Shown here in pieces: positions 1,270 to 31,838 of a DNA stretch of 64,000 nt. The position numbers and the translations under genes were made by a program. The stretch spans positions 8,162,250 to 8,226,249 of the forward strand of contig JASSKH010000019.1 of the NCBI GenBank assembly GCA_031763025.1, in the 5' to 3' direction. Every line of letters starts with the position of its first letter. The stretch's first letter is position 1. A model generated the notes under the pieces. That model ran no database searches. It saw only the letters and a program-made list of their open reading frames with translations, and was not told the DNA's origin. The stretch comes from Macrocystis pyrifera (Eukaryota > Sar > Phaeophyceae > Laminariales > Laminariaceae).

Positions 1270-1317
1270 TGTGAGAGTATGGAAGGATATACAGTAGGAG
1301 GAGGAAACCAATGAGAG

Positions 1318-1855: not shown

Positions 1856-1883
1856 CCAAATGTTGGAAGTGTCTCTATTAGGA

Positions 1884-1960: not shown

Positions 1961-1961
1961 C

Positions 1962-2040: not shown

Positions 2041-2059
2041 CCCCCCCCCGCATATTTGT

Positions 2060-2168
2060 TGGAGGTGTCTCTGTTAGGAGTAGGAACGGTGCGAGGAACG
2101 GTGCTCCATCTCGAAAGGGGTGCGTGGTCAATGCTCAAATCACTAAGGCAAGCAACAAATAAAAAACG
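2060..2168 (-). mobile_element. G-tailed element, A-type copy
   Basis: An A-type copy with a small internal duplication of the GGAACGGTGC block. It ends at CAAATAAAAAACG and runs straight into the 57-base C tract. Confidence 0.65.

Positions 2169-2225
<57 letters not shown>
2169..2225. repeat. Poly-C tract, 57 bases
   Basis: An uninterrupted C run between an A-type and a B-type element. Similar tracts lie at 8927-8982, 12522-12581 and 60779-60869. The true length is uncertain because such tracts are hard to sequence. Confidence 0.9.
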
Positions 2226-2757: not shown

Positions 2758-2826
2758 CCCTATATATGGAGAAGAAGACAAAAAAAATGTCACCCGCCCC
2801 CTCCCTGTTTTGGCAGGAAAAAACTC

Positions 2827-8288: not shown

Positions 8289-8925
8289 GATTTTCTCTCT
8301 GGAGCAGCGTTAGCCGGTCACTGGGGCGTGCTCCTTCGCCTCCGTTTTTCGTACCGAGAAGTACCTCCTCCCTCTCTTCCACAGCGATGCTCCCTCTCCG
8401 TCTCTCTATCTATCGGGTGAGTCCTGGGCGTCAACGCAATGAGAGTGTTCAACACGCAACCCCGAGAAAACAAAAAAAATGTTTTTTTCGTTTTTTTTTT
8501 TGCCACATTTTTTTTTAGATAGTTTTTGACCGAAATAACGCCAGTGCGGTGCAACTCCGGAGAGCGTGCCCAAACCTCCCCCCCCATGATTTTTTGGAGC
8601 AGAGAGGAGAATCATTAAAAAACAAACCACCCCTTTTCTCCAAGCCCGGGGAACGGTCTCGAGCGAACCGCGGAGTGCCTCGTTTTGACGGTTCACGACC
8701 TGGCTCGTCTCCTTCGAACGGGTGTCGGCGACCAGTCACCGTGAGCTGAAGAACCACCATCACAACAAACAGCAACAGCAGCACCAGCATCATCAAAAAG
8801 AGCTCAGAAAGTGCCCAGAAAGTACATTTTTCAATTTTGAGTTTTCTTTCCCCATTCATCTCCCGCGCACATTGCTGCAAACCCCGGCAAGTACCGGGGG
8901 GGGGGGCAAAGAGATCGTGAGGGCG

Positions 8926-8984
<59 letters not shown>

Positions 8985-9015
8985 ACCGCTTCATTGAGGA
9001 TAGCGGTCAGGCGAT
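8289..9015. promoter_or_regulatory. Shared divergent 5' region
   Basis: The plastid-protein gene starts leftward at 8288 and the EsV-1-7/PHD gene starts rightward at 9016, so these 727 bases must hold both 5' regions. I see T- and A-rich runs near 8465-8520 but no clear TATA box. A 56-base G run (8927-8982) sits just upstream of the rightward start. Confidence 0.4.
8927..8982. repeat. Poly-G tract, 56 bases
   Basis: An uninterrupted G run 33 bases upstream of the ATG at 9016. Unlike the other long tracts, I find no clear G-tailed element beside it. Confidence 0.9.
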
Positions 9016-9237
9016 ATGGACTTCTCCCCCGCTGGTGTTATCTGCGCCGGGGCGGCAGCAGCTGGGCCGACTAGTATTTCGAACTCGGCCCAACCAAATC
9101 TAAACTTGCAGGATGATCGCATGGAAATAGGAAGTGCCGGATCATTATCATCCCCTTCTGAACGAGGCAATCCAAACGCTCGACAGCAGCATCAGCAGCA
9201 GCAGCAGCAGCAGCAGCAACAAAGCAGCATTGGTCAG
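9016..9237 (+). CDS. Exon 1: N-terminus with poly-Gln
   Basis: 74 codons starting MDFSPAGVICAG, with a run of glutamines near the end, closing at GGTCAG|GTGAGG. The ATG at 9016 is the first in frame after the poly-G tract. The acceptor of the next exon is uncertain (9597 or 9599). Confidence 0.5.
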
Positions 9238-9527
9238 GTGAGGGGCACTGCACCCCCCGCCGCAGGGCCGTACTCCGACGGGTCCATTACAGCAGCGGTC
9301 ATATCTGCACGATCGGCTGTGGTCGCGTCTGCTGTGTCGGCCATGGGGGCCATCGTTGCTGTTGCGACTAATATGTCTCCCCCACCCCTACCCTCTGCTA
9401 TTGGGCCAAAGTCCACTACTACTACTAGTACTACCACTTTTACTAGTACTATTACTAGTACTATTACTAGTGGTAGCAAGAAAACTGGGAGCTAAGCATA
9501 GCAGCAGCAAGAGAAGGAGGAGCAGGA

Positions 9528-9566
<39 letters not shown>

Positions 9567-9743
9567 CTGTGGCTACTGCTGCTGTGTCAAGGAAAGAGCA
9601 ACGGCAGAAGCAGCAGCAGCAGCAGCACTCTGGTGATGATGATAACGGTGGTTCCCTGTTCCCAGGGCCTTCCCCATGGCCGCTTGAGAGGACGCTGGAG
9701 GAACAGGAGGAGGAAGAGTGGGAGAAGCAAAGGGAGGAGGAGC

Positions 9744-9823
<80 letters not shown>

Positions 9824-12520
9824 CAACAGCAGCAGCAGCAGCAGCAGCAGAGGCAACGGCAGCGGCAGCTGGAGGAGGAGGCCGATGAGTACGAGGAAGA
9901 GGAGGAGGACGACGAAGAATACCATGAGGAGGAGGGGGAGGGGGGGGGATGAGCCGGACAATGATCACGAAATGACCGAGGCTACCAGTATGAACGGCAC
10001 CATCGGCGAACACCCAATTAATAGACTCCACAACAGCAGCAGCAGCAGGGCCAAAAAGGTGAAAAAATACATTGACGATGACGGTGATGACCGATCGCCC
10101 TCCCCCAGAGCTTTGGGTGGTGGCCCCCGGCAGGGAGCACGCGGGGCGGGGGTGAAGCGAGAGGTGGATACGGAGGCGGGGGAGGAAGAGGCAGGGGGGG
10201 GGGGGGAGGGGGAGGGGAAGACGAGGAGGGGGGCGCACAGGGGGGAGGGGTCGGCCAGCCCTCACCCACCGTCCCAGCTGGAGGCCGGTGAGATTCAATA
10301 TTTTTATTTCTTATTTTTGAGTTTTGTGTTCATGTTATTGCTACCCAACTCAACTACCAGGTACATCAGGAAGTACACCCACACCACAGCTGTAGCAGTG
10401 TCCGCCCTGATTCCTTATCCTACCGCAGACTGCTGCAGAGAGATGACCATGACCACAGATGCTCCCAGTACCTGGGGGTAAAGTATATTATTCCCGACAG
10501 AAAGTACTTCAGGTGCTTCGTGTACTCGCACTATTTTCCCTCTGTCTGCTGCAGTACTCGCAGTATTTCGAGGTTCTGTGCTGCGGATACTGCCATGCTC
10601 GCAGCAAGCGTTCCGACGAGGTTCCGGCCGGACTGCTGTGCTGTGCTGTGCTGTGCTGTGTGCTTCCAAGTATTTCAGGGTTCTGTACTGCGAAGTACTA
10701 CTGTTATTTTACGGGGGGGGCGGGGGGTCCATAGTTAACAGGACCTATGGTGTACATAAAAACCCATATATTTGCCTATTTTTACTAACAAAATTTGGTC
10801 CCGTTAACTATGGACCCCCGTAGTAGTAGCAGTATTTCGTCCGGTGGTATAGCGAGTACTGCGAGTACTAGTAATACTAGTACTATTAATAGTGAATAGG
10901 AGTATGCAGTGTACATACTTCGGCCGTCTGTGCACCGCACCGTTTCGATAGTAGTTTCATCCCCACACATTTTATTGCAGAAACCATTCACGTATGGTCC
11001 CGCGAGTGGGAGTTGGAGCAGGTAACTGATAACTCTCGGGGGGGGGGCAACTGGAGTACTTACAACTTACAACAGCAGTACTGGCAGCGTTTTGGGAATA
11101 TATACTGCTGCGAGTACTCCCAGTGTTGACGGGTTCAGTACTGTTGGTACTGAGTACTCCCAGTATTTCGGACGTGTGTACTGCTCGTACTTGGGGTTCT
11201 GTACTGCTCCTACTCCCAGTATATTATTTGGACCTTCAATACTGCTCATATTCCCAGCACTCACGAGTACTGCAATACTCCCAGTACTCGGGGGACGAAA
11301 TGTACTATTAATATATACTCCGAGTATAGTGGGGGTATTAAGCATACGTACTGGGGGCATCTATGAGTATGAGATATACTGCTGTTAATAATTATGTGGT
11401 CACAGAGTGTGGGACGGATAAAAAAACTAAACAAATATACCTGCAAATGAAAGGGTAAAGCAACTGAAATGCTAACGTACCGGGTACGAGAGCACGACAA
11501 CGCAAGCCAGACCAGAAACCAAGAACAAAAAGACAGTAGTACGTACCTAATATACAAAACCAAAATAGTGCTGAGTGGTGAAATGAAACAGAATAAACGC
11601 AATGCAAAGAGATCAGAAGGGCTCGCATATAGGCTCACGAGGAACAGATATCTGCTGCTCGGACGAAGGAACGGCAAGGAGAGGACGTGCGACTTGCAAA
11701 TTGCGCCCCCGTTTTTTCGTTCACGAGCAGTTTCGAGATGAGATGCTTTTCCCTCATTTTCTCGTTCTGTATGGTACCACTTTGTACGGAAATATAAAGA
11801 TGGTTCGGTTACTAATATTTATATTCAACCGGTCCTTAGATTTTCGGCAGGTATCTACCCAGGTACGTCTGGCACCAAAATTATGTTGACCAGGTATTAT
11901 ATACATATATATATACCCGGTACAACAATTTACTATTAATATACTGCTGTAGACTGGTACAGAAATCAGACACACTCGGTCTTATATCATACTCGTACGG
12001 TACAGCAGTGTGGTACAGCAGCGAGTATATTCTGGTATACGCTGGTATACTGGTACCGGTATGATTTAAAGTACTCGTACTGCAAGTATGTACGTACAGC
12101 AGGAGTACACAGATGCTCCCAGCATAGATCGTACTCCAAGCACACTCGAGTATCGAGAGTATTTCACACTGAGAGCACTGACGGCCGGAATACTACGAGT
12201 ACTGGCAGTCTGGCAGCATGAGCAGTGTCCAAGATTCCTTGCCGAAAGACTACCAGTATTAAATATTGTACGTACTGTACAGTAATTTCGTTGCTCGTCA
12301 ACCCGGTTTCTCTTGTTTGGTGAACACTCACTCATGAGTCGGGTACCCCACTGCTGTGTCATGATGTCATGATGTCATCATACATACCGACCTCCGACGC
12401 CTATGCGTACCAACCCAGTGAACGGTGTGGCGCCTGGTGATGCAATCCCACGATAATACCCAGTGCCCCAAGCCCCCCCCCGCCCCCCCCGATACGACAA
12501 CGGCCATGCATGACAGAAGT

Positions 12521-12582
<62 letters not shown>

Positions 12583-15500
12583 TCCACCACCTTTCCCCCC
12601 CCCCCCCCTCACTCCCCCCCCCCCCCCCCCCCCCCTGCTCCGTCTCGAAAGGGATTCGTCGTCAATGGTCAAATGACTAAGGCAAGCAACAAATAAGTAC
12701 GCCCCCCCCCCCCCCCTGCTGGAAGTTGAAAGCTCGACGTGCTCCGTCCCGGCATTGTAGGGATGCGAGGGTTTATGGTCATACGACTACGGCCATGCAT
12801 GGTGACGAGTACTTCCCCCCTGTCACCCCCCCACCCTGGTCACATCTACAGCACCGCTGCTGCCGCCGTCGCTGCTGATAGTGTACCCACTACAGCAAAC
12901 AGTAGGGGGTATACTATTAACAACATATATACTGCTGTAGAGATGATCCGATGCCTTTTTAGGACTGCAGTGTCCGTTTGGGGTCTAAAAACTTGGAATT
13001 TAAGTGGCTTGTCGTCTCCTAAACGGGGGCTGCAGTCCTCGGTTTACCTAAGCTAAAAGGGTTGGGATTGATGTACTCTAATCGCCGTGTCGTGTCCCGC
13101 CAATACAAAAAAAGCTGTACGTAGTAGGTATTGTCCACTACAAATAAGCAGAGCAATCTGTACGAATTATATACCAGGTACCTGGTGACTGGTACCTGGT
13201 GACTGGTAGTACCGCTGCAGTTATCCCTCGTACACGCAACTCGTAATGGAACAAAATGAGCTGTCGACGGCTCCTGGGTGGCGCTATCCCGAGCTAACCT
13301 CTTGGTCGAAGCTTAAAGGGGTCGACTAAGGAGGGCCGGCAAGTCCATGACACGAAAAGACGGAAGGAGTGTGCGTGTTGAGCCTGTGTGGTGCTGCGGA
13401 TGGACTAGAACCGGTACACAACTACAAAACCGTATTGGGCGAAAGCTTTCTTTTTACCCAGATCTCCTATTTATCAATAGGAGGATTACAAAAATACTTA
13501 CATTAATACAGCTCGTAGTTTTTGTTGTACTCTAATTCAGAGTGTTTTGTCCCCAAAGCGTGGGTGCGGTGGTGAAAGGCTCAACCCTTGTTTGTGACTG
13601 CAGTGCCGTTTCGAGGGCACTGCAGAAGGGTTTACCTGCTAGTAGGCGTGTCACGGGGCGCGTTTTTCTTTTTTTGAACCGAGGTACCCGCCTGCTGTGT
13701 GATGATACCGACCTCCGACCGTCTACCGACCGTTCGTCGCATGGTTATGGCAGTCCTGCGAGAATGTCCGGTGCACCAAGAGTCCCTGCTTCGGGTTTCC
13801 CGGGCGCAAGGGACAGTTTTGCTTCAAGCACAAGGAGGAAGGGATGATAAACGTCCGACGCGCCAAGTGTCAAGTCAAGGAGTGCACCAAGGTTTGTGGG
13901 GAGGGATGATATTTGGAGGTTTGGGGGTCTCAGGTAGGATGAGGGGGTTATATGAAGCCCGTGCTCTCGTGAGGCCCCGAGTGATGTGGTAGCTTTGACC
14001 CGCTACCGAGGGCTGCAGCTCTGTTCCTTATATCTAGGACAAGGAGAGAGCCCTCCGCGCGATATCGTGGAAAGGAGAGAGGACGAGCAAAGTTTGGGCG
14101 GGCAAACAAGGTTCTCCTCGACTTCAAGGAGACTCGGGGTATTACGCCGAGTTCGGGTTATTTTCGGGTTAGCATTGGGGCTGTCTATTAGCAGCAAGAT
14201 ATCAAGGGTTAAATAAGGTTGTTGGGTCAGGGTGAAATTCTAGGGCTGGGGTCTTCCCGAGGCCCCCCGACCGGACTTGAACGTGTAGTGGGTGGCGACC
14301 CGCGCACAGCGGGAGGGCTGTGGTGAGCGCGTGTACATTTTTTTTTTGTGGTTGTATTTGTAGTTTGCCGACGCAACCGTTCCGCTTTTCCTTCTCTTCC
14401 TCCTCCTCCTCCTCCTCCTCCTCCTCCTCCACCACCACCACCACCACCACCACCACCTTTGTGTGCCATCGCTTTCTCGGCCTCTGTCTTGGTGTCCGTC
14501 TTTTCTTGATGTGTTTGCTGCCGTCTCTGTTTATTTGTATATAATGTCCCTGCCTCCTGCCCTCTGCTACGCTTCCCTCCGCTCCCCACCTCTGTCGCCC
14601 TCTCCCTCCCTCCCCCCCCCCCTTCTTTCAAAGCAGCCGCCGATTCCAGGCCTGATCCGAGGTCAAAAGGCTCGATTCTGCAAGGACCACCGCCTCCCGG
14701 GTCTGTTGGGGGAAACAGAGGCGATAGAGTGTCAGCACCCCTCAGGGTGTACCCGATTCGCCACGCACGCGCCCCCTCTCCCCCCTATCGCTCTTACTCC
14801 TACTGTTACTGCCGCTTCTGCTTCTAGTGGTACCTGTACTTCTGTAGTTAGTTCTACTCGTGCTCCTGCGGACGCGGTCGCCGCTGATGGTTCGCTTGTT
14901 GCCGCAGCGGAGGATGAGGAGGCGGGAGCGATGGCGGGGAAGGGGGGGGGGGGGGCGCTGGAGAAGAGGGTGATTTGGCTGATGGTGGTGGTGTTGGAGT
15001 TGGTGTTGGTAGTGTAGATGGCGGTGGGGATGCTACTAGTGATGGTGGAGTTGGCGTTCGTGCCGGTGCTGGTGCTATCGCGAGCCCCATCGACCCGGTC
15101 CCGAGCACTACTACCAATCCCGGCGCAACGGCTGCTCCTTCTTCTGTTGTTGGGGCGGCGGCAGAGCAGGCGCCGGCCGTTAGAGAGGTGGGACGAGGAG
15201 GAGAAGGAGGAGAGGGAAATCCTGCATCCCCGGAAGCGCCAACGCTAACGGTGTCGTCATCGCTGGAACCCCGGCCCCTAACGCTAGTAGCGCTAGCGTC
15301 GGCGCAAGCCCTAGCGCAAAGCCTAGCCCTAGCGGGGGCGATACTGCTGTTGCTGCTGCTGCTGCTGCTGCTGGCGGTGATGACGGTGGTGGTGGTGGTG
15401 GTGGTGTCGATGATGGTGTCGGTGATGACACCAGTGGCGCCGGAGCGGCGGGCGCGCGGAACCTAGACCAGGGGGGGCGGAGACAGCCGATTATGTGCGA

Positions 15501-15852
15501 GGAACACGCCAGCCCTGGGTGGGTGCGTCTTGTCTACGATGGCGACCTCGGCGGTGCTGACTTCACGGGAATGCAGGTCAGGCGGAGGGGGGCGTTTTCG
15601 AGAGGGGATGGGGTGGGTGGGGGGGGGGGGGGGGGGGGGGCGGTTAGAAAGAGAGAACGGGAGAGGGGGGGGGTAGTGGCGGGGGAGGCGCTGACATCGC
15701 CGGAATGCAGGTGGGGCGGAGGGGGTGTTTACGGGAGGGGATGGGGGATGAGGGGAGGGGGGAGTGAGAACGAGAGAAGGCTTTACCGGAACGCAGCTGA
15801 GGCGGAACGTATTTCGGGACGGGGGGTGGAGGGGGAGGGATGCGGTTAGAAA

Positions 15853-15889
<37 letters not shown>

Positions 15890-18800
15890 AGCGGTTAGAA
15901 ATCAGGGCGAGGGGGAGGGGGGGGTTGAAAGAGAGAGGACGGGGGCGGAGAGCGGTAACAAGGAGGGTTTGGGGGAGGGGAGGGGAGGTGTTTAGAAGGA
16001 GAGAAGGGACTGGGGACTGGGGGGGAGGCGGTTAGAAAGAGGGAAGAGGGGAGGGAAGTGAGTGATACGTGGTGATGAAGAGGGGAAGAGGGAGGGAGGG
16101 GGGGGGCTCTCCCTACTTCCGCCTCCCTACAGCCTCCGTTAACTATTCACTCCAAGTAGTTTGGGATGCGGTTCTTAAGGGGTTGGGTCGGATTCGCCGT
16201 TACGTCTGACGTGGTGCTTGCTTTGTCTCCATGTCTCGACCTCGGGCGCACGATGGCCCTGAGGTTTAAGGGCTGTTTGTGTTTCTCTTGCCTAAAGAGG
16301 CCGTATCCCCCCACCCCCCTTGCCCCCCTTGTCTCCCCCATTCCGTCCGCCCTCCCCCCCTACCACCCCCGGCCACCCCATCCCACCCCAACCCATGTTT
16401 AAGGAAATTTGGTCTTCGCTTACCTGAGGAGGCCGTACCCCCCCCCCCTGATGCCCCCCCTTCCCTCCCGCCACCCCCCAACCCAACCCACCCCATGCTG
16501 CCTCACCACCCCCAACCCCTCCCCCCCTATCGCCCAACACGCCAAGGCGCTTCGCGCAATACGTGTCTGGTCGGCGAAACCCGACGTGCACCATCCCGAT
16601 GTAGGCGTGGGAAGACCTATGGACTTATGACTACGGCCTGCATGGCATGAGCCCCCCCCCACCACCACCACCACCACCACCTCCATGGTCATACGACTAC
16701 GGCCATACATGACACCCCACCTCCCGCACCCCCGTACTCCCTTTCGTGCTCAATTCGAAAAATGAAAAACCTGTAGCGTCCGAAGCGTCGGCGGACGGTG
16801 TCGTCCCTCCTGCGGGGAACAGACCACGATCGAGATCGAGATCACGACGGTCTCGATCGGCCTCGACATCGCGACGGGCGGAGCTCGTTGTACTACTACG
16901 ACTCTGACGAGTACGAGGACACCTCCACCGGGTCTGGTAGCGCTGCGGGAAGCAGTAGGGGGGGTCGGGGAAGGGGAAGGGGAAGGGGGAGGGGGAGGGG
17001 GAGAGGGGCAGGGGTGGTGGTGGTGGTGGTGGTGGTCGGGGGTCATCCGTTTCGTCGGCGAGAGGGCTACGTGGCAGCAGCGGAGGCGGCGGCGATGGCG
17101 GTGGCGATGGCAGTGGAAGCAGCAGCAGCGGCATACAGGGGTTCAGAAGGGGTTCTACAGCGGTTGGAAGGGTCAAGAGCGTTAATGACCAGTAAGTGGA
17201 AGAGTTGTGGTCGTTTGGGGGAGGGGGGGGTGTACTCGACATCATGCATGGCCGACGGGGGGAGGGGGGGGCGTGTGCTCGTGTCATACATGGCCGTAGT
17301 CGTATGACCGTAGACCCTCGCATCGCTTCTTTGTCGGGACGGAGCATGCCGGGTTTTCACCGACCAGGTAGACTGTGCTTGGGGTGTTGTTGTTGTTGTT
17401 GCTGCTGCTTCTTTTTCGCTGCTGCTGCTACTGCTGTTGTTTTATTGTTGGTGTTGGTGTTGTTGTTGTTGTTGCTGCTGCTGCTGCTTTTTCGCTGCTG
17501 CTGCTGCTGCTGCTGCTGTTTATTGTTGGTGTTGGTGTTGTTTATTGTTGGTGTTGGTGTTGGTGTTGTTGTCGTTTGTTTGTGTTGTTGGTGTTGCTGT
17601 TGTTGTTGTTGGTGGTGGTGTTGGTTGCTGTGGCGGTGTCGCTGCCGTTGTTGTCGTGGTTGCTGCGACTGCTATTGTTGTCGCTGTCGTCGATCCTGTT
17701 GCTGCTGCTGCTGCTGCTGTCGTTGTTGTTGTTGTTAATGGTGTTGTCCAGGCGGCAGCGACCATGTTTCACGGGAGCTGTTCCTACCCTGGTGATTGGT
17801 TGATGAACCCTTCCTTCCCTGTGCGCGATGGCCGCGATCCACCTCCCCCCAGCCTCTCTCCGTGGCCACTTTATTCTGTCACAATTTCGTGTTTCGTCCT
17901 TTGAAGTTGATGCTAAATCGGCTGACTTTATCCCAGGGGTTTCCAGGGGTTTCGCGCGGCGCTTCTTGGCCGTCTGTCCGAGTACCCGCCCACGTGCCGT
18001 GCTCAGTCGCCTATTTTTTTCTATTTTTTTTTGTTTGCGTGTTTATGTGTGTGTGTTTTTTTTTCCCTCTCTCCCTTCCGTTTTTTTTTGTTTTTTTTTT
18101 TTTTGTTCAAGGTGCCCGCACACTGAAAGCAAACACTACTGCCGCGGGAAGTGTAAGCTGTGCTACATGAAGGTCAGCCAAATTGTTTCGTTTTTGTTGT
18201 TGGTTAGTTTCTTGTTGTTCTATTTGGTGCTCCTTTTCTTATTTGTCTTATTTTAACGGCCCGGCGATAATCTTTTGGTCTTAGAGCTGTATGAACTATT
18301 TTTTTTTTCGATTATTTTTTAGAGCAATCGCGAGAATCGACTTTCCGGCTGTACTGACTGTACTTTAAGCAGCACACCCGAGTCATAAAGGGCAGCAACT
18401 ACATGTGCGCCAGAGATATTCCGCATTTCCATGTTGTTTGTTCTCTCTCTAAACGAGCCAAACCGAACCGAACCCAACCGAAACGAGTCGAGTCGAACCG
18501 AACCGAATCGAACCGAACCGAACTGAACTGAATCGAACTGAATATTGACTGTAATCGTGTAGAACCGAAGTGATATTGAATCGAACCGAACCGAACAGAA
18601 CCGATCTGAACTTGAATACATTGTTAAGATACCAAGTATACCATAATCCATTCGATTCAGACCCAACCCAACCCATCCCATCCCAACCCAACCCAACCGA
18701 ACCGAAACGATTCGTACCGAATCGAATCGAATCGAATCGAACCGAACCAAATTGAAAAATTTAATCGAACCGAATCTCTACACCAGGAGTACAAACAGAA

Positions 18801-21800: not shown

Positions 21801-24800
21801 TCTAGAATCGAAAAAAAATCGATCCGATTTTGCACTTTCGGACTGCATAAGCAGATGCTTTCATTTTTTTGACCGAAAAATACAAATCTGAAGGTTGAAA
21901 TCAAACCGCATAGGAAACAGCCTGAAGCCTTTCATATTTTGGATGTCGATTTCGATGCTGGACGTCGATCTCGATCCCTTCATTTCGATTTTTTTTGTGT
22001 TTGTATCAATTTTGAGTTCGATGCCAATCAATGCCTATGTCCGCCATTGCCGTGAGCACCTAGCGTGGGTAAAGCTGTTTTTCGACGCGAGTCGACGAGG
22101 GAGGAAAGCGCCGATGACCTCTTCTCGCGATGAAATGCAAGGCGCGTATCGCGGTGGGGAGGGGTGAGAAGAGTCTGCTATCAGATACTGACCCCCGCAT
22201 CAAGAACACGTTGGGATTAGGAGGGGGGGAGGGAGAAGGGCGATGGGATGAAAAACGAAGGAGAAAAATATTGGGGTTGATGTCAATGTCTCGGTGTTGA
22301 CGTTGTTGTCGATGTCGATTTTGATGCCGTCATCGATATCGGTGTGGATGCTTGTGCTGTCGGCCGTTTCGATGTCGATAATGACGTCGATGTACAGTAG
22401 GTGGTGTTTTCTCTTCGGGCGCTTGTTTCGCGGCCCGCTCATTGCTATTGCCGTTGTTATTTTTATTATTTGCTTGTCGCTTGTTTTTGGCGCAGGAGAA
22501 AACGTCCCCGTGGCATCCGCCGGGGAAACAGGGGCAGGTGCCCAGGGCACGGCATCCGGAGCATCTGCTGACGCGGCTCCTTCCGGCTTCAGGTGTGGCA
22601 ACTGGCAAGACATGTTTTCATGTCGACGTTCTCTAAACATAAGGGTACTGACCAAACATACTACTGCTGTTCGTACTACTGCTGTACAACCACCACTAGA
22701 CTACTGGTATGTAAAAATCACTCAACCGCGGATATCATCACGTGTTATATTGTATCACTGAGTAGCACGGCACGAGCTATTGCTCTGTTTACTATTACGG
22801 GGGACCATACTGCAGTTAATAGGACCAAATGTTGTTAGCAAAAGTAGGAAAATATATACTTTTTTGTGTGTACCGTAGGTCCTATTAACTATGGCCTCCC
22901 GTAATATCACAGGGGACCGTGGTAAATGGGACCAAATATCGTCAGTAAAAATAGGTAAATATATTTTCATGGTAGGTTTTTTGTGTCCGCCATAGGTCTT
23001 ATTTACTATGGTCCCCCGTAATATCAACAGCGTACCAGTTTTGTTGGCCAACGATGTAATATGTGGCAAATGTTGCTATTAATACGGTATACAAACTTCG
23101 GTATACAAACTTCGTTCCCAGTACAATACCTGGTGTATGGTATCTTAACGTGGAATAGTGAGTGGCGCGACCTCTTTTCTCGTTTAGTTTAAGGTATGAT
23201 CGGGCTTGAAAAAAAAAAAAAGAGGTTAAAAACATTCTGGTGTAAAAAAATAATGTTTCGGGCTTGAAGAGAGATCAAACAGTCTGGTTTTTGAGACGAG
23301 CTCGTGTTTTACGAGATGCTCAACTTGAACAGGCCTGACACACCCCCCCCACCCCTCTCTTCAACCGCGACTCCCACTGATATTTTGCTGGATAAATCAA
23401 GGAGGCGTCGCCGCTCTGGCCGTGACCCCGCATCCCCAAACGCCGGTGGAGGCGGTAGCTCCGGCCGGCCATGAGAAAGGGTGGCGACGGTCGGTGTCGA
23501 GCTGTGAGCACTCCGACGCTGCTCATTACGGGAAGGGATTCTGCCGGCCTTGTTACATGGTAAGGGTCTATGGTTGATGGTGGTCGTTGGTGGTGGTCGT
23601 AGTGCTATTTTGGTCGTTGATGGTGGTAGTGGCGGTGGTGGTGAGGCTGGATGGGAGAGTGGTGGCGGTGGTGGTGTCGGTGTTGTTGTTGTGGTTGGTG
23701 GTGGTGGTGGTGGTGTAGGTTGTGGTTGTGGTTGTGGTCGTGGTGGTGGTGGTGGTTTGCTGTGGTCGGCGTTGATGCTCCTGCTGGTGGTGGCGGTGAT
23801 GGTGGTGCTGGGTGTCAGTCGTGGTTGTGTTGATGGTAATGGTGGTGGTGCTGGTGTTGGTGTTCTCGTTGTTCGTGGTGGTGCTGGTGGTGGTGGTGGT
23901 TACGGTTGTGGTGTCGGGGGTGTTGATGTTGACGATGGCGTTATTTTGGGGGTGTTCTTGACGGTGGAGTTATAGTTGTGGTTGTCATTGGTGCCATTGC
24001 TGTTGGTGATGGTGGTGGTTCTATGGTTGATGGTGGTGGTGGTGGTGGTGATGGTGCCCCCCTGTCCCACAATGGGTAACAGTGGGCACCATCGACACGC
24101 TTCCTGCATGACGTCTATCGGTCGTTTACGTGTTGGCTCACACCGCGCCCCGTTGACCCCCGCGTTCCGTCGTGCTTGTTTGGTTTTGCTGTCATGTATC
24201 CCCGTGTTCGATCTCATGACCGTTTGCTCTTGTTGCAACCTTTGCGCCGAAACAAAGCCGTAACAAAACCAAACGAAACAACGTCACATGAAACAACAAA
24301 CAATGCAAAACGAAACGTATGAAGACCAAGCAAAACATGTCGTCAACGGCCTGAACCCCCCTCCCCCCCCCCCGTGCCCCCCCCCCCCCCAGCCTCCCCT
24401 CCGCTTCCCCTCCACACACACACACCCTCCGTTTCCCCTCCCCACTCCCCTCCCCTCCTCCTCCTGCCCCACCCCCCCTCCCACCTGTCTTACTTTCCGC
24501 GCCCGGTGTGAGTAGAGAGAGTACAACAAGGCTAAGAGGAGGGGAGAGTCTGTGGTTCGGCTTCCCCGCCCCTATCGCGCAGAGGCGGCGGAGGGGGGGG
24601 GGGGCGGGTACGGGGACCCCCGCATCCCCTAAAGCCGTTACCTCGAAGACGGCGGCGGCAGTGGAGGCGGTAGCGGTAGCCGGGGTGGGGGGGGGGGGCG
24701 GGACGGGGGGCGGAGGGGGGGGGGGGGGCAGCGGGGGGGACGCGGGGTTCGAACTTCGCCCCTAAGATTAGGGCATTGCCCGCCCCGCTGTGCGCCGATT

Positions 24801-26439
24801 GTGGACAGTCTGAGAGATCGTGGGCCGTGGTTCTTACGTGTGATGGGTGAGTGGAAGTTGGTGAGGGGCGGGTGTGCTCACGGTCATGCATGGCCGTGGG
24901 TAGTCGTATGACCATAGACCCTCGCATCCCTACAATGCCGGGACGGAGCACGTCGGATTTTCACCAACCAGGCAGACATTGCTTGCACCAAGCGCCGTGG
25001 TCGTATGGCGACAGGGGGGGGGGGTGCTCATTTGTTGCTTGCCGTAGTCGTTTGACCGTTGACCATCCCTTTCTAGACGGAGCGTAGGGGGGTTGCTTGT
25101 TTTGGAAGAGTTCAAGAGGGGGGGCGGGGGGCATGAGGGGGATACTCATGTAATGCATGGCCGTAGTGGTACGACCGTAGATCCTCGCATCCTTACAACG
25201 TCGGGACGGAGCACGTCGGGTTTTCACCGGCCAGGCAGGCAGATAATGCTTGGAATCAAGGGTTACAGCTTTGGTGCGCGGCGTCTAGTAGGGGAGTTTG
25301 CGATTTATTGGCAATGAGCTACCGAGCTGGTGTGGGTGGTTTGATGCGACGTGAGGCACCTCGTGCGGATTATGGTATGGTAAGGTACGTCCCTGGTGCG
25401 TATTTATGGTTTGGCGTTTGATACGGTATACTGTGAGGATAGTATATATTATTTTTCCGATGATACGTAATCGTACTTTACGGATATCGGTACGTATAGG
25501 GAGTGTTTTGGCTGTGTGCTTAGTTTTGATAGGAGTGATACAGCAGTGTTCGATACGATACGATACGATAACATACGATGGACCAGGTAGTACGCCCTGC
25601 TATTTACTTTAGGTAATATCCTTTTTCGCGATCCAGCACCAATTTAGGACTATGATATCAACATCGCATAGAAATATCGGTCGGTTCGGGCGAACAAACT
25701 TCTTCGAAGTCCTCATGTTATTATTAGCCTATCATAAGGCGCCACCCCTGACGCGGCATTGCTCGAAATTGTACCAGCCACGAAGTGAACTTGACACGAC
25801 AGGTCGAAGGCGGCTTACCACCTCGGCTGCAAGGTCCAGAACACGATATATATGGCACATTTTTCTCCAATTACGGAGGGCCATTCGTATATGAATGGTG
25901 ATCAGGACACATCGTATCATATTCACAAAAAAAAAAAAAATGTGTTCCAGTATTTTTAATAGGCACAGGTTGGTTCTGATTACTGCGTTCCCCCGTGGCG
26001 CACGATATAATAACGTATGTGTTCTGATATTATACGATAAACGACACCTGATACAGTACGGATGTTCTATAATGTGACTGTGGTGTGACAGGTGCGAGGC
26101 GACCTTCCACCTCGGCTGCAAGGGCAGGAGCCACCAGCCCGTCGGGGAATGGTTCTGCACAAGCTGCACTGCCATCCTCCTCGATAGCGACAGCGACTCC
26201 GGTACAGACCCAATGCGACGATCGCGGGCGTCTCCCCTGTCCAGCCGGCGCCAAGCGGGGACGACCAAGCCGGCAGCACATACGCGGCCTAGAGCCGCCG
26301 GCACTCTGGACCCACCCGGTCTAGGAAGGTCCAAAGCGTCGCTAAGGTCGACTGCTGCTGGTGCCGCTGCTACTGCTGGTGATGCTGGTGGTGGTGGTGG
26401 TGGTGCTGCTGCTGCTGCTGGTGATGCTGCTGATATTCG

Positions 26440-26471
<32 letters not shown>

Positions 26472-26673
26472 ATGGTGGCGGTACTGGTGCTGATGCGGCC
26501 ACGGAGACTACCGCTGGTGGTGGTGGTGGTGGTGGTGGTGGTGATAAGCTGGGGGCCTCTTCTTCCGGACCGAGCGACCGAATCGATGAAGTCAGTGGTC
26601 CAAGCGCTGAGGATGACGCTGCCCCTGCCCCTGCTGGTGCTGCTTCTCCCGCTGGTAACGCCTCTGCTGCTGG

Positions 26674-26705
<32 letters not shown>

Positions 26706-29700
26706 ATGGCATTGCCGCTGATGGCGCTGGCGCGGACGGCGAAAGCGGAAGCGGCGCTGTAGGTTGGCTGCCGCCCAAGCCACCGGGGGCGGTGGTGGCA
26801 GCGGTGTTGAATGCGGCGCCACCGCCCGGATTGACGCCCTCATCGTCAACCCCCTCCTCCTCCTCCCCCGCGTGTCCCTCTCGCCGGGCACGGCGGGAAG
26901 ACGGCGTGGAAAGCGAAGCGGCGCTGGCCTCTCAAGGGGGACGTTCGGGGTTGTCGTTGCCCCGACTGCGTGTCCATCTTGCTGCAGAGCGGAGCCAAGC
27001 GCCCGGCCGAGGCCACTAGGCTGCTGCTCCTGCCGACTGACTCGCGGGGTAGCGCGTGGGCTGCGTGGGCCCAGCCCTCCTCGACGGGCGCGGACGCGAG
27101 TTTCCATGGCTCTGTTATTGGTAGTAGTGGTGAGGGTGGTCGGGGCGGTCGTGGTGGTGGTGGCTTGGGGGTTAAGAGGAGGCGCCAGCGGTCTCCGATG
27201 GCGGACGCTGGCCGGGGGGAGGGCTGGAAGGGGCGATCTGATCGCGCGGAGCTTCAGGGGCTGGCGGCCGCGCCGAAACGCTCGGAGCACGGCCAACTAG
27301 GGTCCCCCGGTGGCGATGGTCCGGCCAACTCCGCTGAGGCAGCGGCCGCGAGTGGTGATGGTGGTGATGGCGGTGTCGCGAGGGAGGCGGCGGTGGCGGC
27401 GGCGGCGGCGAGAGCAGCTACGAAGGTTGAAATCGATGGACAAGGGGTTGTCGGCGATAAAGATGACAAGGAGAATGCCGCGCTTCTCCGCGTAGCGTTG
27501 CCGGCGAGACGCGAGGTCCGGGTCGGGGTCGCAGGCGCGGTGGCTGGCGCTGGCGGTGCCGCCTCCGCCGCTGCTGTTGCTGCCGCTGGTTCTGCTGCCG
27601 CTGGTTCTGCCAGTGCTGCTGCTGCTGCTGCTGCTGCTGACGGTGGTGACCCGACCCCTAGCCCGAAGGCAGAAACACGGGTCAGCGCGAGGGCAACGCG
27701 CGGCAAGCGGAAGGCTCACGACGCCAACGACTGGGACACGGGTGACTGGATGAGCGAAGACGATTGGAGCAGCGATATCCCCGCAACCGCTTCCACCCCG
27801 GCCGCCGCCACCGCCGCCTCTACCGTCGCCGCCAACTCTTCCGACGCCTCGGTGACTCCCGCGTCTACCCCGCGAGGAGGGGAGAGGGCAGGGGTAAGGC
27901 CGACGCGGACGAAACGGAAGACCCACGGTGTCGACGAGTGGGACAGCGGTGGCTGGGTTAGCGAGGATTATTGGAGCGACGTCCCCGCGCCCGGCACCCA
28001 CGCCCGCCAGTTCGGGGCCAGGACGCGCCGCCGCCGGGGGGGGGGGGTGCCGAGAACAGCGACGACAGCTACTCGATGAGCAACAGTGGCGGCAACACCA
28101 GCAGCGGCGGCGACGGCAAGAGAACCAGACGCGCTGGCGGTGGTGAGGGAGGCAGAGGGTCGGGGCGTCCCAGAAAATCGAAGACATGTTCTCGTGGGCG
28201 CTCTGCCGCGCCTGGGTCGGCGGCAGTTGGCTCTGCGGGGTTTCCTGGGGAGGCGGGTGATGGTGGGGGAGGGGGAGGGGGGGGGGGGAGGGGAGAGAGA
28301 GGAGGTGACGAGAAAGAAGTCCAGGAGGAGGACGCGGAAAGGGGTGGTGACGGAATGCGAGCATACGGACCGTGAATTGTACTCGAGGGGCAAGTGCAAG
28401 CCGTGTTATATGGTGAGGAAGGAACCGATGCGCGCACCAGCAACGACGAGTACACAGCATCAAGCCGCGCGCGCTCTTCGATATGCGTCCCCTGCCCAGA
28501 TAGCACCTTCTAACTTCACATGAGCGCGTGAAGTCTTGTTGTTTCACCACAGTTTATGAATACTGTATGACACGCAGGATAACAGACACCTGTCGGACGA
28601 AATTCCGTAGCTGGTCTTCTCTCGACATCGGCTAGAGTGTCAACGCCAATCGATACGTATCTACGGCTACGGAAATGTCTAGACGAGATATTTCCAAAGC
28701 CACCGTTCTGGTTGCGTGTGGTTATCCTTGTTATCGAGAAAACATGTCCGTAAATTGGGCCCCAGGGGTGTTGTGTTACTTGTTACCAGGTATACGGTAG
28801 CAGCTAGGGCTGGGCACTCACTCGATAGCGATTATACTGCCGTCAAAAAATATCAGTATACTGGATTACGGCAGTATACTGTCTCTCCTCTCTACTTTAT
28901 CCTCCCCAAATGTAATGTAGTGGGTTTCCTTACTGTGGTATGACTTGTTTCTTAGGCGTACGTAAGATAAAAAATTCTGGCGAATGTACTGGCCAGATCA
29001 ATCAGTGGATTACTATGGCCAGTACATACTGCGACAGTGCCCAGCGCTGGTAACAGCACAACGCGCTCGCTCCTGCGTTTGTGTTCATCAGCCATGATGT
29101 GTTGTGCCTATCGCCCTCGGGTTCTTAGGCCGAGGTGGGTCTTTGTACCTCTCCAGCAAATCGACTGTTTTTTTTTTTTCAGAATAGCAGATGCACGCTG
29201 CCGTTGCCGTTACCGCTGTCGCTGGCGTTACGGTAGCACCCCTCTTATAGTGCCGGTGTATATGCGCTAGGCAACCTAGCCAACAATACCGGCACGATAG
29301 CGGCAACCGGCACTAATCCCTCCGCACACTTTCACACGGTTCGGCAAGCGGCTTCACCGGCACTACCCACAGCCGGCACCGGAGAGGGACCACCACTGTC
29401 GAAGTGCGAGCGAAGCGAAGTTTTTCCAACTTAGGACGGCACAAGAAGAAAAAAGAGCTCATGTCCAGCCTCGCGTGCCGAAATCTCCGTGTCCCGTCCG
29501 ACGACTGGACTCTGCCGTGAAAATAAGAGAATACAGTGAACGAATCGTTTTGCGACTACATGTAAATGCTTGCATCGTGTTTTTTTAGTCTTCTGCATCC
29601 CATCAGCGCACACAGTTGGCAACAGTTTCAAGTAGACACCAGCGCGAATGCCTAGCGAGAGCTACAACCGTACGTTATGTTGTTGTTGTTGTTTTTTTTC

Positions 29701-31838
29701 GCCGACACCGTTTGCACGTGGCCTCCTGGTTGTTGGTGACGGGGTTCTTGATGCTGACATTTATCTGCTGCTATCGTTGTCGTTTTTGTCGCCGTCGTTA
29801 TAGTTTGTGGCATCCCGCTGTCATTTTGGTCATTTTCCCTGCCTTTGACACACGACGACTTTTTTTTTATTTCGTCAGGTGGCCTACTGGCACCGTAAAC
29901 ACGCCGAGCTCGGCATCAAACCCCGCAAAAAAAACGTTCTTCTAATGGGAGCGGTGGCGGCGGGGGGGGCGGTGGGGACGACAACGACAACCCGGGGGTG
30001 GGGGCGGGAGAAAAACATGCTGACGCAAACATTAAAACGCCGCGGGACAGCGCCCACAGCGACTCTCCTTCTTCGCCCGAGGTTGGACACCGACGGAAAC
30101 ACCGGGGGAAAAAGGCCTCCGCCGCCGCTGCCACTACCACTGGCGATGACACCCTAGTGCAGCCTAGAGGTGGTGGTGGTGGTGGTGGCGGCGGTGATGC
30201 GGAACCCATCGGGAGGGGGGGGTAGTGCCAGGCTTGGCGGGCGCGCGTTCGCCGGTCGATGGCCAGATTGATGTTGGTGGCGATAGCAGCGGCAGTGGCG
30301 GCGGCAATGGCAGCACCTCTGGGCGGGGGAAGGAGGGGGTAGGCAAGGGCGGAGGCCGCGGGAGGGAGGGGGGGGGGGGGGGTCGTGAGAGAAGCTCTCA
30401 GGCTTTATCGAAGGGGAGTGATGCGAGCGTAACCGCCGGTGGTGGTGGTGGTGGTGGTAGTGGTGGTGGAGAGAGGGCTGATGGGGATGGAGGTGGTGAT
30501 GGTGATGTAGGAACGGCAAACGGAAGGAGCGCTTCTGCCAAAAGTGGGGCGTCTCGGAAAGCTCCTGGGGTGGAGGTTGTGGTGGGGACCACGCTGGCGC
30601 GGCCGGGCGGACGGCAGCGTCCAGCGAGTACGGCTGCTGCTGCTGCTGCTGCTGCGACGACGGCGGCATGTCCACGTTCGACGCTGAATGCCGTGAGGCC
30701 GGAGCACGAACCCATTGAGACGGTGACCTTGACGAAAACGACGGCATCGGCAGTCACAGCAGTGGGGGCGGGAAACCTAGCGGGTCCAGCGGAAACGTCG
30801 ACAGCGAACGCGGGAACAACAACAGAACCGGGGACGGAGTCGGCGAGGCCGGCGATGGCGACGTCGCTGCCCAAAGTGGATCGTCCCAGAAAGCCCCACC
30901 AGAAGCCTGGGCCGAAGCCTGGGTCGAAGCCTGGGCCGAAGCCTGCGACAAAGCCTGGGCCGAAGCCTGGGTCGAAGCCTGGGCCGAAGCCTGCCTCAAA
31001 GCCTGGGCCGAAGCCTGGACCGAAGCCTGCGACGAAGCCTGGGTCGAAGCCCGCAACTGGTAGCTCTCACGCGAATAGTCCTCCTGCAGCTACAAGTCTT
31101 TCCACAAAACCTGCAGCAGGGGGGAACAAAGCCCCCCAAACTATTGGAAAGTCCGAAGGAGAGGGGGAGAATGCCTCGAAATCTACTGGAAAGCTTGCAG
31201 GAGGGGGGAACGGCAGCGCCTCGAAATCTACTGGAAAGCCTGCAGGAGGGGGGGACACCAATGCCTCTAAATCTACTGGAAAGCCTGGAGGAGGCTCTGC
31301 TGGAAAGGCTGCAGGAAAGCGTTCTGGATCTTCTGCGGCAGGGCGTGCTAGTAAGCCTGGTGGAAAGCTTTCGGGGCCTGCAGCGGAAACGCCTGGGCCG
31401 CAAGCTGGGTCGGCTGGACGCATTGCGAAGAACTCTGCGCCGAAGTCGATGGGAGCGGCAGTGATGGCGGTGACGGCGGCGGCGGCGGTGGTAAAATCAG
31501 CGCCCTCGAGGCCTGCGGGAAAGAGGCCGGAATCGTCGTCACCATCACTGTCATCATCGGCACCTTTACCTTCACCATCATCGCCAACAGCACCGTCAGC
31601 GTTACCATCACCATCCTCGCCATTACCGCCGTCACTACCACCATCCTCATTGTCCCCGCCATCATCATCGCCGGCCGTTTCTTCTGAAGCTCTGGGGTTA
31701 GCATCGACAAACGCGGTACCGGCGGCGAAGGGGGCGAAGGGGGAGACCGCAGTGCCAAAGGGGCAGGGCTCATCCAGCCCCCCCGCCCCCAGGCACCTCC
31801 CCTTTCCGCCTCCTTCTCCCTCTGGAACCGCTGAATGA
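9016..31838 (+). CDS. Giant EsV-1-7 / PHD / zinc-knuckle protein, 13 exons
   Basis: Exons: 9016-9237, ~9599-10287, 10981-11021, 13754-13891, 14637-15576, 16777-17191, 18112-18172, 18787-18985, 22496-22592, 23402-23559, 24516-24846, 26092-28412 and 29879-31838, about 2,500 residues in all. Phases agree at every junction. Order of parts: poly-Gln and acidic N-terminus; EsV-1-7 repeats; Arg/Asp-rich linker; knuckle 1; knuckle 2; PHD finger; Ala/Gly-rich linkers with a duplicated Trp/acidic motif; knuckle 3; a Lys-Pro-Gly repeat tail. PHD fingers usually read histone tails and EsV-1-7 proteins include a brown-algal developmental regulator, so I infer a chromatin or transcription role in the nucleus. 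The frame slips about ten times, nearly always at G or A runs. It could be two or more genes, the 3.5-kb intron after 18985 being the likeliest break. Confidence 0.65.
9599..10287 (+). CDS. Exon 2: poly-Gln / acidic low-complexity
   Basis: This exon encodes a long glutamine tract (CAG array about 9755-9850) and Glu/Asp-rich runs. After a one-base slip at the G run 9943-9949 it continues with DEPDNDHEMTEATSMNGT and a basic AKKVKKYIDDDGDD segment. It ends at GCCG|GTGAGA in phase 1. Confidence 0.55.
10703..10827. mobile_element. TA-flanked palindromic MITE, copy 4
   Basis: The ends TTTTACGGGGG and CCCCCGTAG enclose AACCCATATATTTGCCTATT. It lies in intron 2 of the giant gene. Its left end is G-expanded. 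Confidence 0.7.
10981..11021 (+). CDS. Exon 3: small 41-base exon
   Basis: The acceptor TTTTATTGCAG and donor CAG|GTAACT frame 41 bases. Joined in phase they encode ETIHVWSREWELEQ. It links exon 2 (phase 1) to the EsV-1-7 exon (phase 0). Confidence 0.65.
12522..12581. repeat. Poly-C tract, 60 bases
   Basis: It follows GACAGAAGTA, the end of a damaged B-type element on the minus strand. Further C runs continue to about 12635. Confidence 0.9.
12640..12700 (-). mobile_element. G-tailed element, A-type copy
   Basis: CTCCGTCTCGAAAGGGATTC, GTCAATGGTCAAATGACTAA and CAACAAATAAGTACG lead directly into C14. Confidence 0.65.
12715..12815 (-). mobile_element. G-tailed element, short B-type copy
   Basis: CGACGTGCTCCGTCCCGGCA, TTGTAGGGATGCGAGGGTTT and ACTACGGCCATGCATGGTGA, ending GAGTACTTCCCCCC. 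Confidence 0.65.
12953..13062. mobile_element. GGACTGCAGTCCCG-family palindromic element
   Basis: The left arm is TTTTTAGGACTGCAGTGTCC and the right arm CGGGGGCTGCAGTCCT. The interior CTTGGAATTTAAGTGGCTTG matches other family members. Confidence 0.55.
13754..13891 (+). CDS. Exon 4: first EsV-1-7 repeat
   Basis: 46 codons between ATGGCAG| and ACCAAG|GTTTGT. The cysteine/histidine spacing is C-x4-C-x15-C-x2-H-x12-C, with CENVRC, FGFPGRKGQFC and CFKH. This is the brown-algal EsV-1-7 motif (usual form C-x4-C-x16-C-x2-H-x12). The last cysteines (CQVKEC) begin repeat 2. Confidence 0.85.
14398..14456. repeat. (TCC)n(CAC)n microsatellite
   Basis: About ten TCC units are followed by about ten CAC/ACC units in the intron before exon 5. 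Confidence 0.85.
14637..15576 (+). CDS. Exon 5: second and third EsV-1-7 repeats
   Basis: Starting at CCG after CAAAGCAG, the exon completes repeat 2 with C-x16-C-x2-H spacing (ARFCKDH). It opens a third repeat at CQHPSGC, whose C-x2-H (MCEEHASPGWVRL) arrives only after a roughly 240-residue Ala/Gly/Ser/Pro insert. Two frame changes are needed inside the insert, one at the G run 14942-14955 and one near 15190-15230. The exon ends FTGMQ|GTCAGG in phase 0. Confidence 0.6.
15577..16140. repeat. G-rich minisatellite containing copies of an exon end
   Basis: The sequence around the exon 5 donor (GCTGACTTCACGGGAATGCA) recurs as GCTGACATCGCCGGAATGCA near 15691 and CTTTACCGGAACGCAG near 15780. Between and after these are several GCGGTTAGAAAGAG blocks and long G runs, including G30 at 15859-15888. 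Confidence 0.6.
16555..16712 (-). mobile_element. Two damaged B-type G-tailed elements
   Basis: The first (about 16555-16642) reads GTCTGGTCGGCGAAACCCGA..GACTACGGCCTGCATGG. The second (about 16685-16712) is only GGTCATACGACTACGGCCAT. They sit in the intron before exon 6. Confidence 0.5.
16777..17191 (+). CDS. Exon 6: Arg/Asp and Gly/Ser-rich linker
   Basis: Beginning after CCTGTAG it encodes RPKRRRTVSSLLRG, an Arg/Asp/His-rich stretch, YYYDSDEYEDTSTGSGSA and a Gly-Arg run. A one-base slip in the purine tract near 16950-17005 leads into Gly/Ser repeats. It ends VNDQ at the strong donor A|GTAAGT. Confidence 0.55.
17228..17380 (+). mobile_element. Two short B-type G-tailed elements
   Basis: A truncated copy (GTGTACTCGACATCATGCAT) and a longer one (CATACATGGCCGTAGTCGTA to GACCAGGTAGACTGTGCTTG) lie side by side, each preceded by G runs. 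Confidence 0.6.
17385..17740. repeat. GTT/GCT compound microsatellite
   Basis: Long interrupted arrays of TTG, GCT and GTT triplets in the intron between exons 6 and 7. Confidence 0.8.
18112..18172 (+). CDS. Exon 7: zinc knuckle 1
   Basis: A 61-base exon after a long T-rich tract. In phase it encodes CPHTESKHYCRGKCKLCYMK, a C-x2-H-x9-C-x2-C pattern of the kind seen in uncharacterised stramenopile and ciliate proteins, where each Cys/His quartet probably binds one zinc. The donor AAG|GTCAGC follows directly. Confidence 0.75.
18452..18770. repeat. (GAACC)n degenerate pentanucleotide array
   Basis: Imperfect CCGAA/TCGAA/CTGAA units with an interruption near 18545-18580, inside the intron that splits knuckle 1. 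Confidence 0.8.
18787..18985 (+). CDS. Exon 8: basic tail of knuckle 1 and Gly-rich linker
   Basis: Begins EYKQKKRNLIGGEQ after CTACACCAG and runs without a slip to KTAHADEG, ending in phase 1 at GAAG|GTATTA. If that donor is not used, the frame closes at 19008 and the gene would end here. Confidence 0.55.
20149..20270. mobile_element. TA-flanked palindromic MITE, copy 5
   Basis: The ends are TTACGGGCGACC and GGTCCTCCGTAA, with GGACCTACGGTATACCC and ACGATATTTGGTCCTATA inside. Confidence 0.7.
20449..20562. mobile_element. TA-flanked palindromic MITE, copy 6
   Basis: The left end is decayed (TATTGCGGGGGATCG); the right end is GGTTCTCCGTAATAG. The interior AATTTTGTTGGTAAAAATAG is typical of the family. 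Confidence 0.7.
22496..22592 (+). CDS. Exon 9: Ala/Gly/Ser linker
   Basis: After GTTTTTGGCGCAG the exon encodes GENVPVASAGETGAGAQG and SGASADAAPSGF, ending at TTCAG|GTGTGG. Phase 1 in and phase 2 out fit the exons on both sides. Confidence 0.5.
22791..22906. mobile_element. TA-flanked palindromic MITE, copy 7
   Basis: TTACGGGGGACCATAC to CTATGGCCTCCCGTAA. It is separated from copy 8 by only a base or two. Confidence 0.75.
22908..23023. mobile_element. TA-flanked palindromic MITE, copy 8
   Basis: The left end is shortened (CACAGGGGACCGTGG) and the right end is CTATGGTCCCCCGTAA. With copy 7 it makes the second MITE doublet in this window, here in the same orientation. Confidence 0.7.
23402..23559 (+). 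CDS. Exon 10: zinc knuckle 2
   Basis: The exon ends with CEHSDAAHYGKGFCRPCYM and the donor GTAAGG, again cutting right after CYM. The start after AAATCAAG reads RRRSGRDPASPNAGGGGSSG in phase 2. One extra base between about 23440 and 23500 is needed to reach the knuckle frame. Confidence 0.65.
23565..24060. repeat. (GGT)n-rich degenerate microsatellite
   Basis: Nearly 500 bases of interrupted GGT/GTT/GTC triplets in the intron that splits knuckle 2. Confidence 0.8.
24516..24846 (+). CDS. Exon 11: basic tail of knuckle 2 and first half of PHD finger
   Basis: Starts REYNKAKRRGE, passes a Gly-rich stretch with G runs at 24593-24604 and 24690-24740 where the frame slips twice, and ends CADCGQSERSWAVVLTCDG at the strong donor GG|GTGAGT. 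That supplies the first three zinc ligands of a PHD finger and the start of the CDGC motif. Confidence 0.7.
24870..25010 (+). mobile_element. G-tailed element, short B-type copy
   Basis: CATGCATGGCCGTGGGTAGT, CCCTACAATGCCGGGACGGA, GCACGTCGGATTTTCACC and ATTGCTTGCACCAAGCGC. Confidence 0.65.
25024..25085 (+). mobile_element. G-tailed element, A-type copy
   Basis: A G10 run is followed by TGCTCATTTGTTGCTTGCCG, GTCGTTTGACCGTTGACCAT and TAGACGGAGC. Confidence 0.6.
25140..25260 (+). mobile_element. G-tailed element, short B-type copy
   Basis: GATACTCATGTAATGCATGG, CATCCTTACAACGTCGGGAC and CGTCGGGTTTTCACCGGCCA. Confidence 0.65.
25795..25850 (+). pseudogene. Decayed copy of the PHD exon start
   Basis: GACAGGTCGAAGGCGGCTTA followed by CCACCTCGGCTGCAAGG matches the acceptor and first codons of the true exon at 26092, 289 bases downstream. 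If used, it would read SKAAYHLGCK. It loses the fourth zinc-binding cysteine (CDGC becomes CDGS) and lacks the WFCTSC end. Confidence 0.6.
26092..28412 (+). CDS. Exon 12: second half of PHD finger, linkers, start of knuckle 3
   Basis: The exon completes the PHD finger: CEATFHLGC, then WFCTSC, giving C-x2-C-x12-C-x2-C-x4-H-x2-C-x12-C-x2-C with the usual Trp two residues before the seventh ligand. Long Ala/Gly-rich stretches follow (GCT arrays). KRKAHDANDWDTGDWMSED and KRKTHGVDEWDSGGWVSED form an internal duplicate. It ends CEHTDRELYSRGKCKPCYM|GTGAGG. The frame changes near 26940-26995 (where TTGCTGCAG could instead be an acceptor), at the G run 28037-28046 and near 28265-28294. Confidence 0.7.
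28805..29049. mobile_element. hAT-like MITE, 245 bp
   Basis: The ends TAGGGCTGGGCACT and AGTGCCCAGCGCTG are inverted repeats (12 of 14). They are bracketed by GTAGCAGC (28797-28804) and GTAACAGC (29050-29057), an 8-bp target duplication with one mismatch. It lies in the intron that splits knuckle 3. No transposase frame. Confidence 0.8.
29879..31838 (+). CDS. Exon 13: tail of knuckle 3 and Lys-Pro-Gly C-terminus
   Basis: After TTTCGTCAG it begins VAYWHRKHAELGIKPRK. Slips at the A run 29929-29936 and the G run 30214-30220 link to a 537-codon frame. That frame carries KPGPKPGSKPGPKPATKPG-type repeats (about 30895-31062), three N/SASKSTGKxAGGG units (about 31165-31300) and a Ser/Pro-rich end. 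Lys-Pro-rich tails often bind DNA or RNA. The stop is TGA at 31836. Confidence 0.65.
30894..31062. repeat. Coding minisatellite, GGGCCGAAGCCT units
   Basis: About fourteen 12-base units (GGGCCGAAGCCT, GGGTCGAAGCCT, GCGACAAAGCCT) encoding the Lys-Pro-Gly repeats of exon 13. Confidence 0.85.

Follow-up and report, generated by a model that had tools for sequence, protein, structure and literature searches.

A candidate giant kelp gene combining EsV-1-7 repeats, a PHD finger, and an uncatalogued small finger in triplicate

EsV-1-7 proteins and the kelp locus

The EsV-1-7 family (Pfam: PF19114) is expanded in brown algae and present also in viral genomes, and its studied member, IMMEDIATE UPRIGHT (IMM) of Ectocarpus, controls early development, according to the available parts of three papers (PMC7457493, PMC12993054, PMC12629598). 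EsV-1-7 proteins are hypothesised to be zinc-finger transcription factors in the accessible portion of one of them (PMC12629598). In the literature searched, most of it readable without subscription, we found no paper that joins an EsV-1-7 domain with a PHD finger in one protein; the initial annotation of the locus described here had likewise found this combination unfamiliar, and part of it is present in a gene model from Ectocarpus (P0002, below).

We analyzed a window of 64,000 nucleotides from the genome of the giant kelp Macrocystis pyrifera. Its forward strand likely carries one brown-algal nuclear gene that extends at least from 13754 to 31838 and encodes a large protein that has small folded parts and is probably disordered over most of its length. 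The order of its parts is EsV-1-7 repeats, small fingers 1 and 2, a PHD finger, a conserved block that we name after its GCRCPDC motif, and an AT-hook-like sequence, followed by small finger 3 and a tail rich in lysine and proline (Table 1). What is new is the way in which familiar domains are combined, together with the uncatalogued small finger; the system itself is not of a new kind. Protein searches recovered five relatives of the PHD and finger part, P0002–P0005 and P0007. P0002 (1,223 aa, one gene model) comes from Ectocarpus sp. CCAP 1310/34 and P0007 (548 aa) from Scytosiphon promiscuus, both being annotated as unnamed protein products, and P0003–P0005 cover later parts only.

Table 1. 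Exons predicted in the window, with their content and the basis of each prediction
Exon	Positions	Strand	Content	Basis and remarks
1 (tentative)	9016–9237	+	ATG; MDFSPAG...SSIGQ; donor CAG/GTGAGG	Open frame and donor
2 (tentative)	9508–10287	+	Poly-Q, acidic, and basic stretches	Start uncertain; donor at 10288 in phase 1
3	13754–13891	+	EsV-1-7 repeat 1; repeat 2, first half	PF19114; phase 0 to 0
4	14634–15576	+	Second half of repeat 2, repeat 3; MCEEHASPGWV at 15493	PF19114; P0002 match
5	16777–17191	+	Linker RPKRRRTVSS...DSDEYED..., ending in VGRVKSVNDQ	Phase 2 donor; end resembles GRPKGVNDQ (P0002) and GRAKGVNNQ (P0007)
6	18112–18172	+	Small finger 1, CPHTESKHYCRGKCKLCYMK	Identical to P0002 at 16/21 and to P0007 at 17/22; without Pfam family
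7	18787–18985	+	Remainder of finger 1 (EYKQKKRNLIGG) followed by a linker	Phase 0 in, 1 out; EYNQKTR in P0002 and P0007
8	23402–23559	+	WRRSVSS and small finger 2, CEHSDAAHYGKGFCRPCYM	Identical to P0002 at 26/35 and to P0007 at 27/32; both alignments extend a few residues beyond the donor
9	24516–24846	+	Remainder of finger 2 (REYNKAKRRGE), linker that contains a frame change and the runs G12/G12/G14, first half of PHD finger (24791–24846)	P0002 matches at 24516–24572 and 24749–24847
10	26092–28412	+	Second half of PHD finger (to 26167), block WPLKGDVRGCRCPDCVSILLQSG (within 26889–27029), GRPRK, small finger 3 (28356)	PF00628 on the spliced finger (24.7 bits); matches of P0002–P0005 and P0007
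11	29879–31838	+	End of finger 3 (VAYWHRKHAELGIKP), linker, K-P-G-P-K-P repeats, stop codon 31836–31838	Open frame; identical to P0002 at 16/17 over 29879–29929

EsV-1-7 repeats and a family of small fingers

Spliced together, exons 3 and 4 match PF19114 in three stretches with 72.8 bits (cut-off of 25), a match that spans repeats 1 and 2 and enters repeat 3; the repeats of the window thus exceed the Pfam cut-off as do those of the EsV-1-7 family, and the initial annotation had recognized this region (13754–15576) correctly. The unspliced frame yields one stretch of 23.7 bits and the half-repeat near 15490 taken alone 15.2 bits, both below the cut-off. Counted by eye, the spacing in the C-x4-C-x~16-C-x2-H pattern is 15 for repeat 1 and 17 for repeat 2, and repeat 3 is broken by a long low-complexity stretch. 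In this the window departs from the rest of the family: it has three divergent repeats, the third interrupted, whereas 20 EsV-1-7 stretches of 3.1 kb, some of which overlap, fetched from the kelp genome hold 3–17 repeats by pattern. Neither the small finger nor the pattern of the second half of the PHD finger occurs in any of these 20 stretches, a result that at 3.1 kb each carries little weight for genes whose introns are long. The same genome holds 1585 first-look EsV-1-7 candidates, and all of the 150 that were scored, from which the 20 fetched stretches were drawn, exceed the Pfam cut-off, indicating that the domain has expanded very strongly.

The small fingers at 18113, 23503, and 28356 are the only matches to their strict pattern in the six frames of the window, and 100 mononucleotide shuffles contain no match. 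An alignment of nine rows (three from the window, three from P0002, and one each from P0003, P0004, and P0005) gives the consensus C-x-H-x5-Y-x2-G-x-C-x2-C-Y-M-x2-Y, with nine positions invariant in all nine copies. A Pfam search with the three fingers of the window returned no match up to an E value of 10. The classical zinc knuckle has the spacing C-x2-C-x4-H-x4-C (CCHC), and we rejected it for this family given the spacing C-x-H-x10-C-x2-C in every aligned row and the lack of a Pfam match. Three knuckles with C-x2-H spacing had been proposed at 18112, 23503, and 28356; the motifs themselves are confirmed, the first with a shift of one nucleotide, while the spacing and the zinc knuckle assignment are not. 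Each finger of the window is interrupted by a phase-0 intron immediately after C-Y-M (C-Y-M-K in finger 1). Finger 3 of P0003–P0005 is continuous through the place of this intron, which is therefore either absent from those genes or spliced out. In structure models a helix begins at the last two cysteines (residues 31–47 beside C30/C33 in finger 1 of P0007, pLDDT about 70; residues 317–331 beside C316/C319 in finger 3 of P0005, pLDDT 80–89), and in P0007 a short hairpin precedes it. The models are of low quality except in fingers 1 and 3 and in two helices, and what they show would be compatible with a treble clef, in which a hairpin is followed by a helix with the last two ligands at its start.

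The PHD finger and a possible role on chromatin

The PHD finger is split by an intron, and joining 24846 to 26092 restores C-D-G-C in a finger that reads LCADCGQSERSWAVVLTCDGCEATFHLGCKGRSHQPVGEWFCTSC. Its C4HC3 ligands and a PF00628 score of 24.7 bits for the spliced sequence, just over the cut-off of 24, identify it as a PHD finger; the second half alone scores 17.4 bits. Both Pfam models, PF19114 and PF00628, therefore exceed their cut-offs in the assembled translation, the check that the initial annotation had suggested. A canonical C4HC3 finger had been placed at 24791–24846 plus 26092–26160, and we amend only its end, the last cysteine being encoded at 26165–26167. Among the relatives, the finger of P0007 scores 25.1 bits and that of P0002 18.2 bits, the latter below the cut-off. 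The window finger shares its C4HC3 pattern with structurally characterized PHD fingers, among them those of PHD finger protein 12 (E value of 2.4e-07) and ING1, whereas the companion domains differ from those of these proteins.

In ING1, a tryptophan before F-H has a role in methyl-lysine binding and the S-F site provides the first residue of the aromatic cage. The window has a threonine aligned with this tryptophan, so it lacks the residue that marks ING-type readers of H3K4me3, and reading of that mark in the manner of ING1 is doubtful. The same substitution could indicate that the gene is single, as we propose, but that its PHD finger is a protein–protein module rather than a histone reader, with the protein acting through its fingers and basic tails. 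We consider this somewhat unlikely given that the window, P0002, and P0007 all retain an S-W pair, which aligns with S-F of ING1. S-W may form one aromatic wall, and the finger might bind an H3 tail that is unmodified or carries another mark.

The domains are joined by conserved linkers. Within the GCRCPDC block (26889–27029), which has no Pfam match, the stretch GDVRGCRCPDCVSILLQ is identical in the window, P0002, P0003, and P0004. An AT-hook consists of a GRP core flanked by basic residues; GRP cores are present in the window and in four of the five relatives, P0007 having none, and occur in contexts such as RGSGRPRKSK in exon 10 of the window and KRPGRPP and RGPGRPR, among others, in P0002, for which a Pfam search gave no AT-hook match. 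The linkers are of low complexity with basic stretches, and the tail carries K-P-G-P-K-P repeats. Exon 10 also encodes, within 27660–27990, two copies of R-x-T-R-x-K-R-K-x-H-x3-(E/D)-W-D-(T/S)-G-(D/G)-W-(M/V)-S-E-D-x-W-S, and neither copy of this W-D-x-G-x-W motif has a Pfam match.

Because the low-complexity linkers, basic stretches, GRPRK, K-P-G-P-K-P repeats, PHD finger, and small fingers resemble known families, we infer by analogy that the product is most likely a nuclear chromatin-associated regulator. Such a protein would sit on chromatin, where its PHD finger would make a putative contact with the histone H3 tail, its AT-hook-like and basic parts would hold DNA, and its EsV-1-7 repeats and small fingers may serve as further DNA- or protein-binding modules, its overall role being that of a chromatin adaptor or regulator. 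We tentatively propose that brown algae joined an array of EsV-1-7, a domain that their giant viruses also have, with a PHD finger and three fingers of a new family, giving rise to a lineage-specific chromatin reader. If true, this reader would tie the EsV-1-7 family to chromatin, and an EsV-1-7 member joined to a PHD finger offers a direct test of a chromatin role for a family of hypothesised transcription factors.

Continuity of the gene and its relatives

The exons of Table 1 were predicted from sequence, homology, and phase; the gene models of the relatives are likewise predictions, and most of the acceptors used score below a simple consensus threshold. Phases agree at all eight joints from exon 3 to exon 11 (E3–E4 0/0, E4–E5 0/0, E5–E6 2/2, E6–E7 0/0, E7–E8 1/1, E8–E9 0/0, E9–E10 2/2, and E10–E11 0/0). 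To this extent the exon-by-exon linkage first described holds, with the qualification that frame changes inside exons need bridging. Joints E5–E6, E6–E7, E9–E10, and E10–E11 are also joined in the predicted models of the relatives. Joint E8–E9 is supported by position only: P0002 has 15 residues between C-Y-M and REYNK, which we would read from the sequence as an unspliced intron, and P0007 is without REYNK. Exon 4 could alternatively contain an intron (14970–15183), which would replace the apparent frame change there, and exon 5 has to be read in frame 1 where it begins and in frame 0 where it ends.

The gene had been drawn from 9016 to 31838, and we retain 13754–31838. The membership of 9016–10287 is doubtful: no homologue of exon 1 was seen, exon 2 has an apparent frame change at a G9 run (9940–9948), and its phase 1 donor does not fit the phase 0 of exon 3 unless there is a further frame change (for example in the G13 run at 10194) or a further exon. 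By homology we also moved the starts of exons 7 and 9 to 18787 and 24516. A suspected break at 19008 was dismissed, as a donor at 18986 bypasses the stop codon and both P0002 and P0007 carry fingers 1 and 2 within a single protein. The original estimate of roughly 2,500 residues is matched by a bridged model of 2,498 positions, which is not a measured length, as it includes the doubtful exons 1 and 2, two stop positions, and exon limits that were later revised.

The decisive joint is E4–E5, which ties the EsV-1-7 repeats to the remainder and is visible in the relatives only through the last EsV-1-7 half-repeat. P0002 starts with MCREHAGPGWV, and its residues 1–14 match 15493–15534 of the window, the end of the last repeat, at 10 of 14 positions. 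From this point it has the same order as the window, namely the repeat end, fingers 1 and 2, the PHD finger, the GCRCPDC block, GRP cores, and finger 3. It differs in that its model begins inside the last repeat, its PHD finger falls below the Pfam cut-off, it has five GRP cores where the window has one, and it has no KPGPKP tail. P0007 shares fingers 1 and 2 and the PHD finger with the window, but its model starts at MTSGRWIGRAKGVNNQ just before finger 1, without an EsV-1-7 part, and ends before finger 3. The same domain order, which the initial annotation had suggested looking for in other brown algae, is thus seen in P0002 from the last half-repeat to finger 3, in support of a single gene with EsV-1-7 repeats, fingers, and PHD finger, but not in P0007. 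The fusion is supported in part by one relative and is not seen in a second, the other three being uninformative; the upstream repeats appear in none of the five and are seen in the window alone, because P0002 holds only the last half-repeat.

The start of P0007 would be expected if there were two neighboring genes, an EsV-1-7 gene ending at about 15.6 kb and a finger/PHD gene starting in or near exon 5. We regard this arrangement as unlikely given that P0002 unites the half-repeat, fingers, and PHD finger in one model, that the phases at E4–E5 agree, and that the P0007 model may be incomplete on either side, since it also breaks off ahead of finger 3.

Frame changes and the assembly

Returning to the single gene, five frame changes in exons 9, 10, and 11 are bracketed by anchors drawn from the relatives and from stop codons (24573–24751, 26781–26888, 28035–28057, 28121–28340, and 29927–29940), and further, unbracketed ones occur in exons 2, 5, and 11. 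Homopolymers of at least 8, among them G12 at 28036, G12 at 28277, and A8 at 29927–29934, lie in four of the five intervals, and none of 5000 random placements in the model exons reached four or more, although the third and fifth intervals were drawn narrowly with the runs known, which flatters this test. The interval 26781–26888 has no run of 6 or more, and the frame change there is unexplained. The assembly of the window comprises 537,376,219 bases in 223 contigs; for a published giant kelp assembly of 537 Mb and 223 contigs, PacBio reads were assembled with Canu and the result was polished with Racon, according to the available part of its description (PMC10498591). Homopolymer errors are expected to persist in such an assembly, and so a decaying pseudogene, in which the five frame changes (including the one without a run) would be real mutations, is very improbable, all the more given that the PHD ligands and the nine invariant finger positions are intact.

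Two uninterrupted and unusually long homopolymers, of 56 G at 8927–8982 beside the region and of 60 C at 12522–12581 inside it, are either real tracts or artefacts of the assembly. At 18440–18780, in the intron that precedes exon 7, short P-N-R-T-E-like repeats occur in several frames and appear to form a tandem-repeat stretch.
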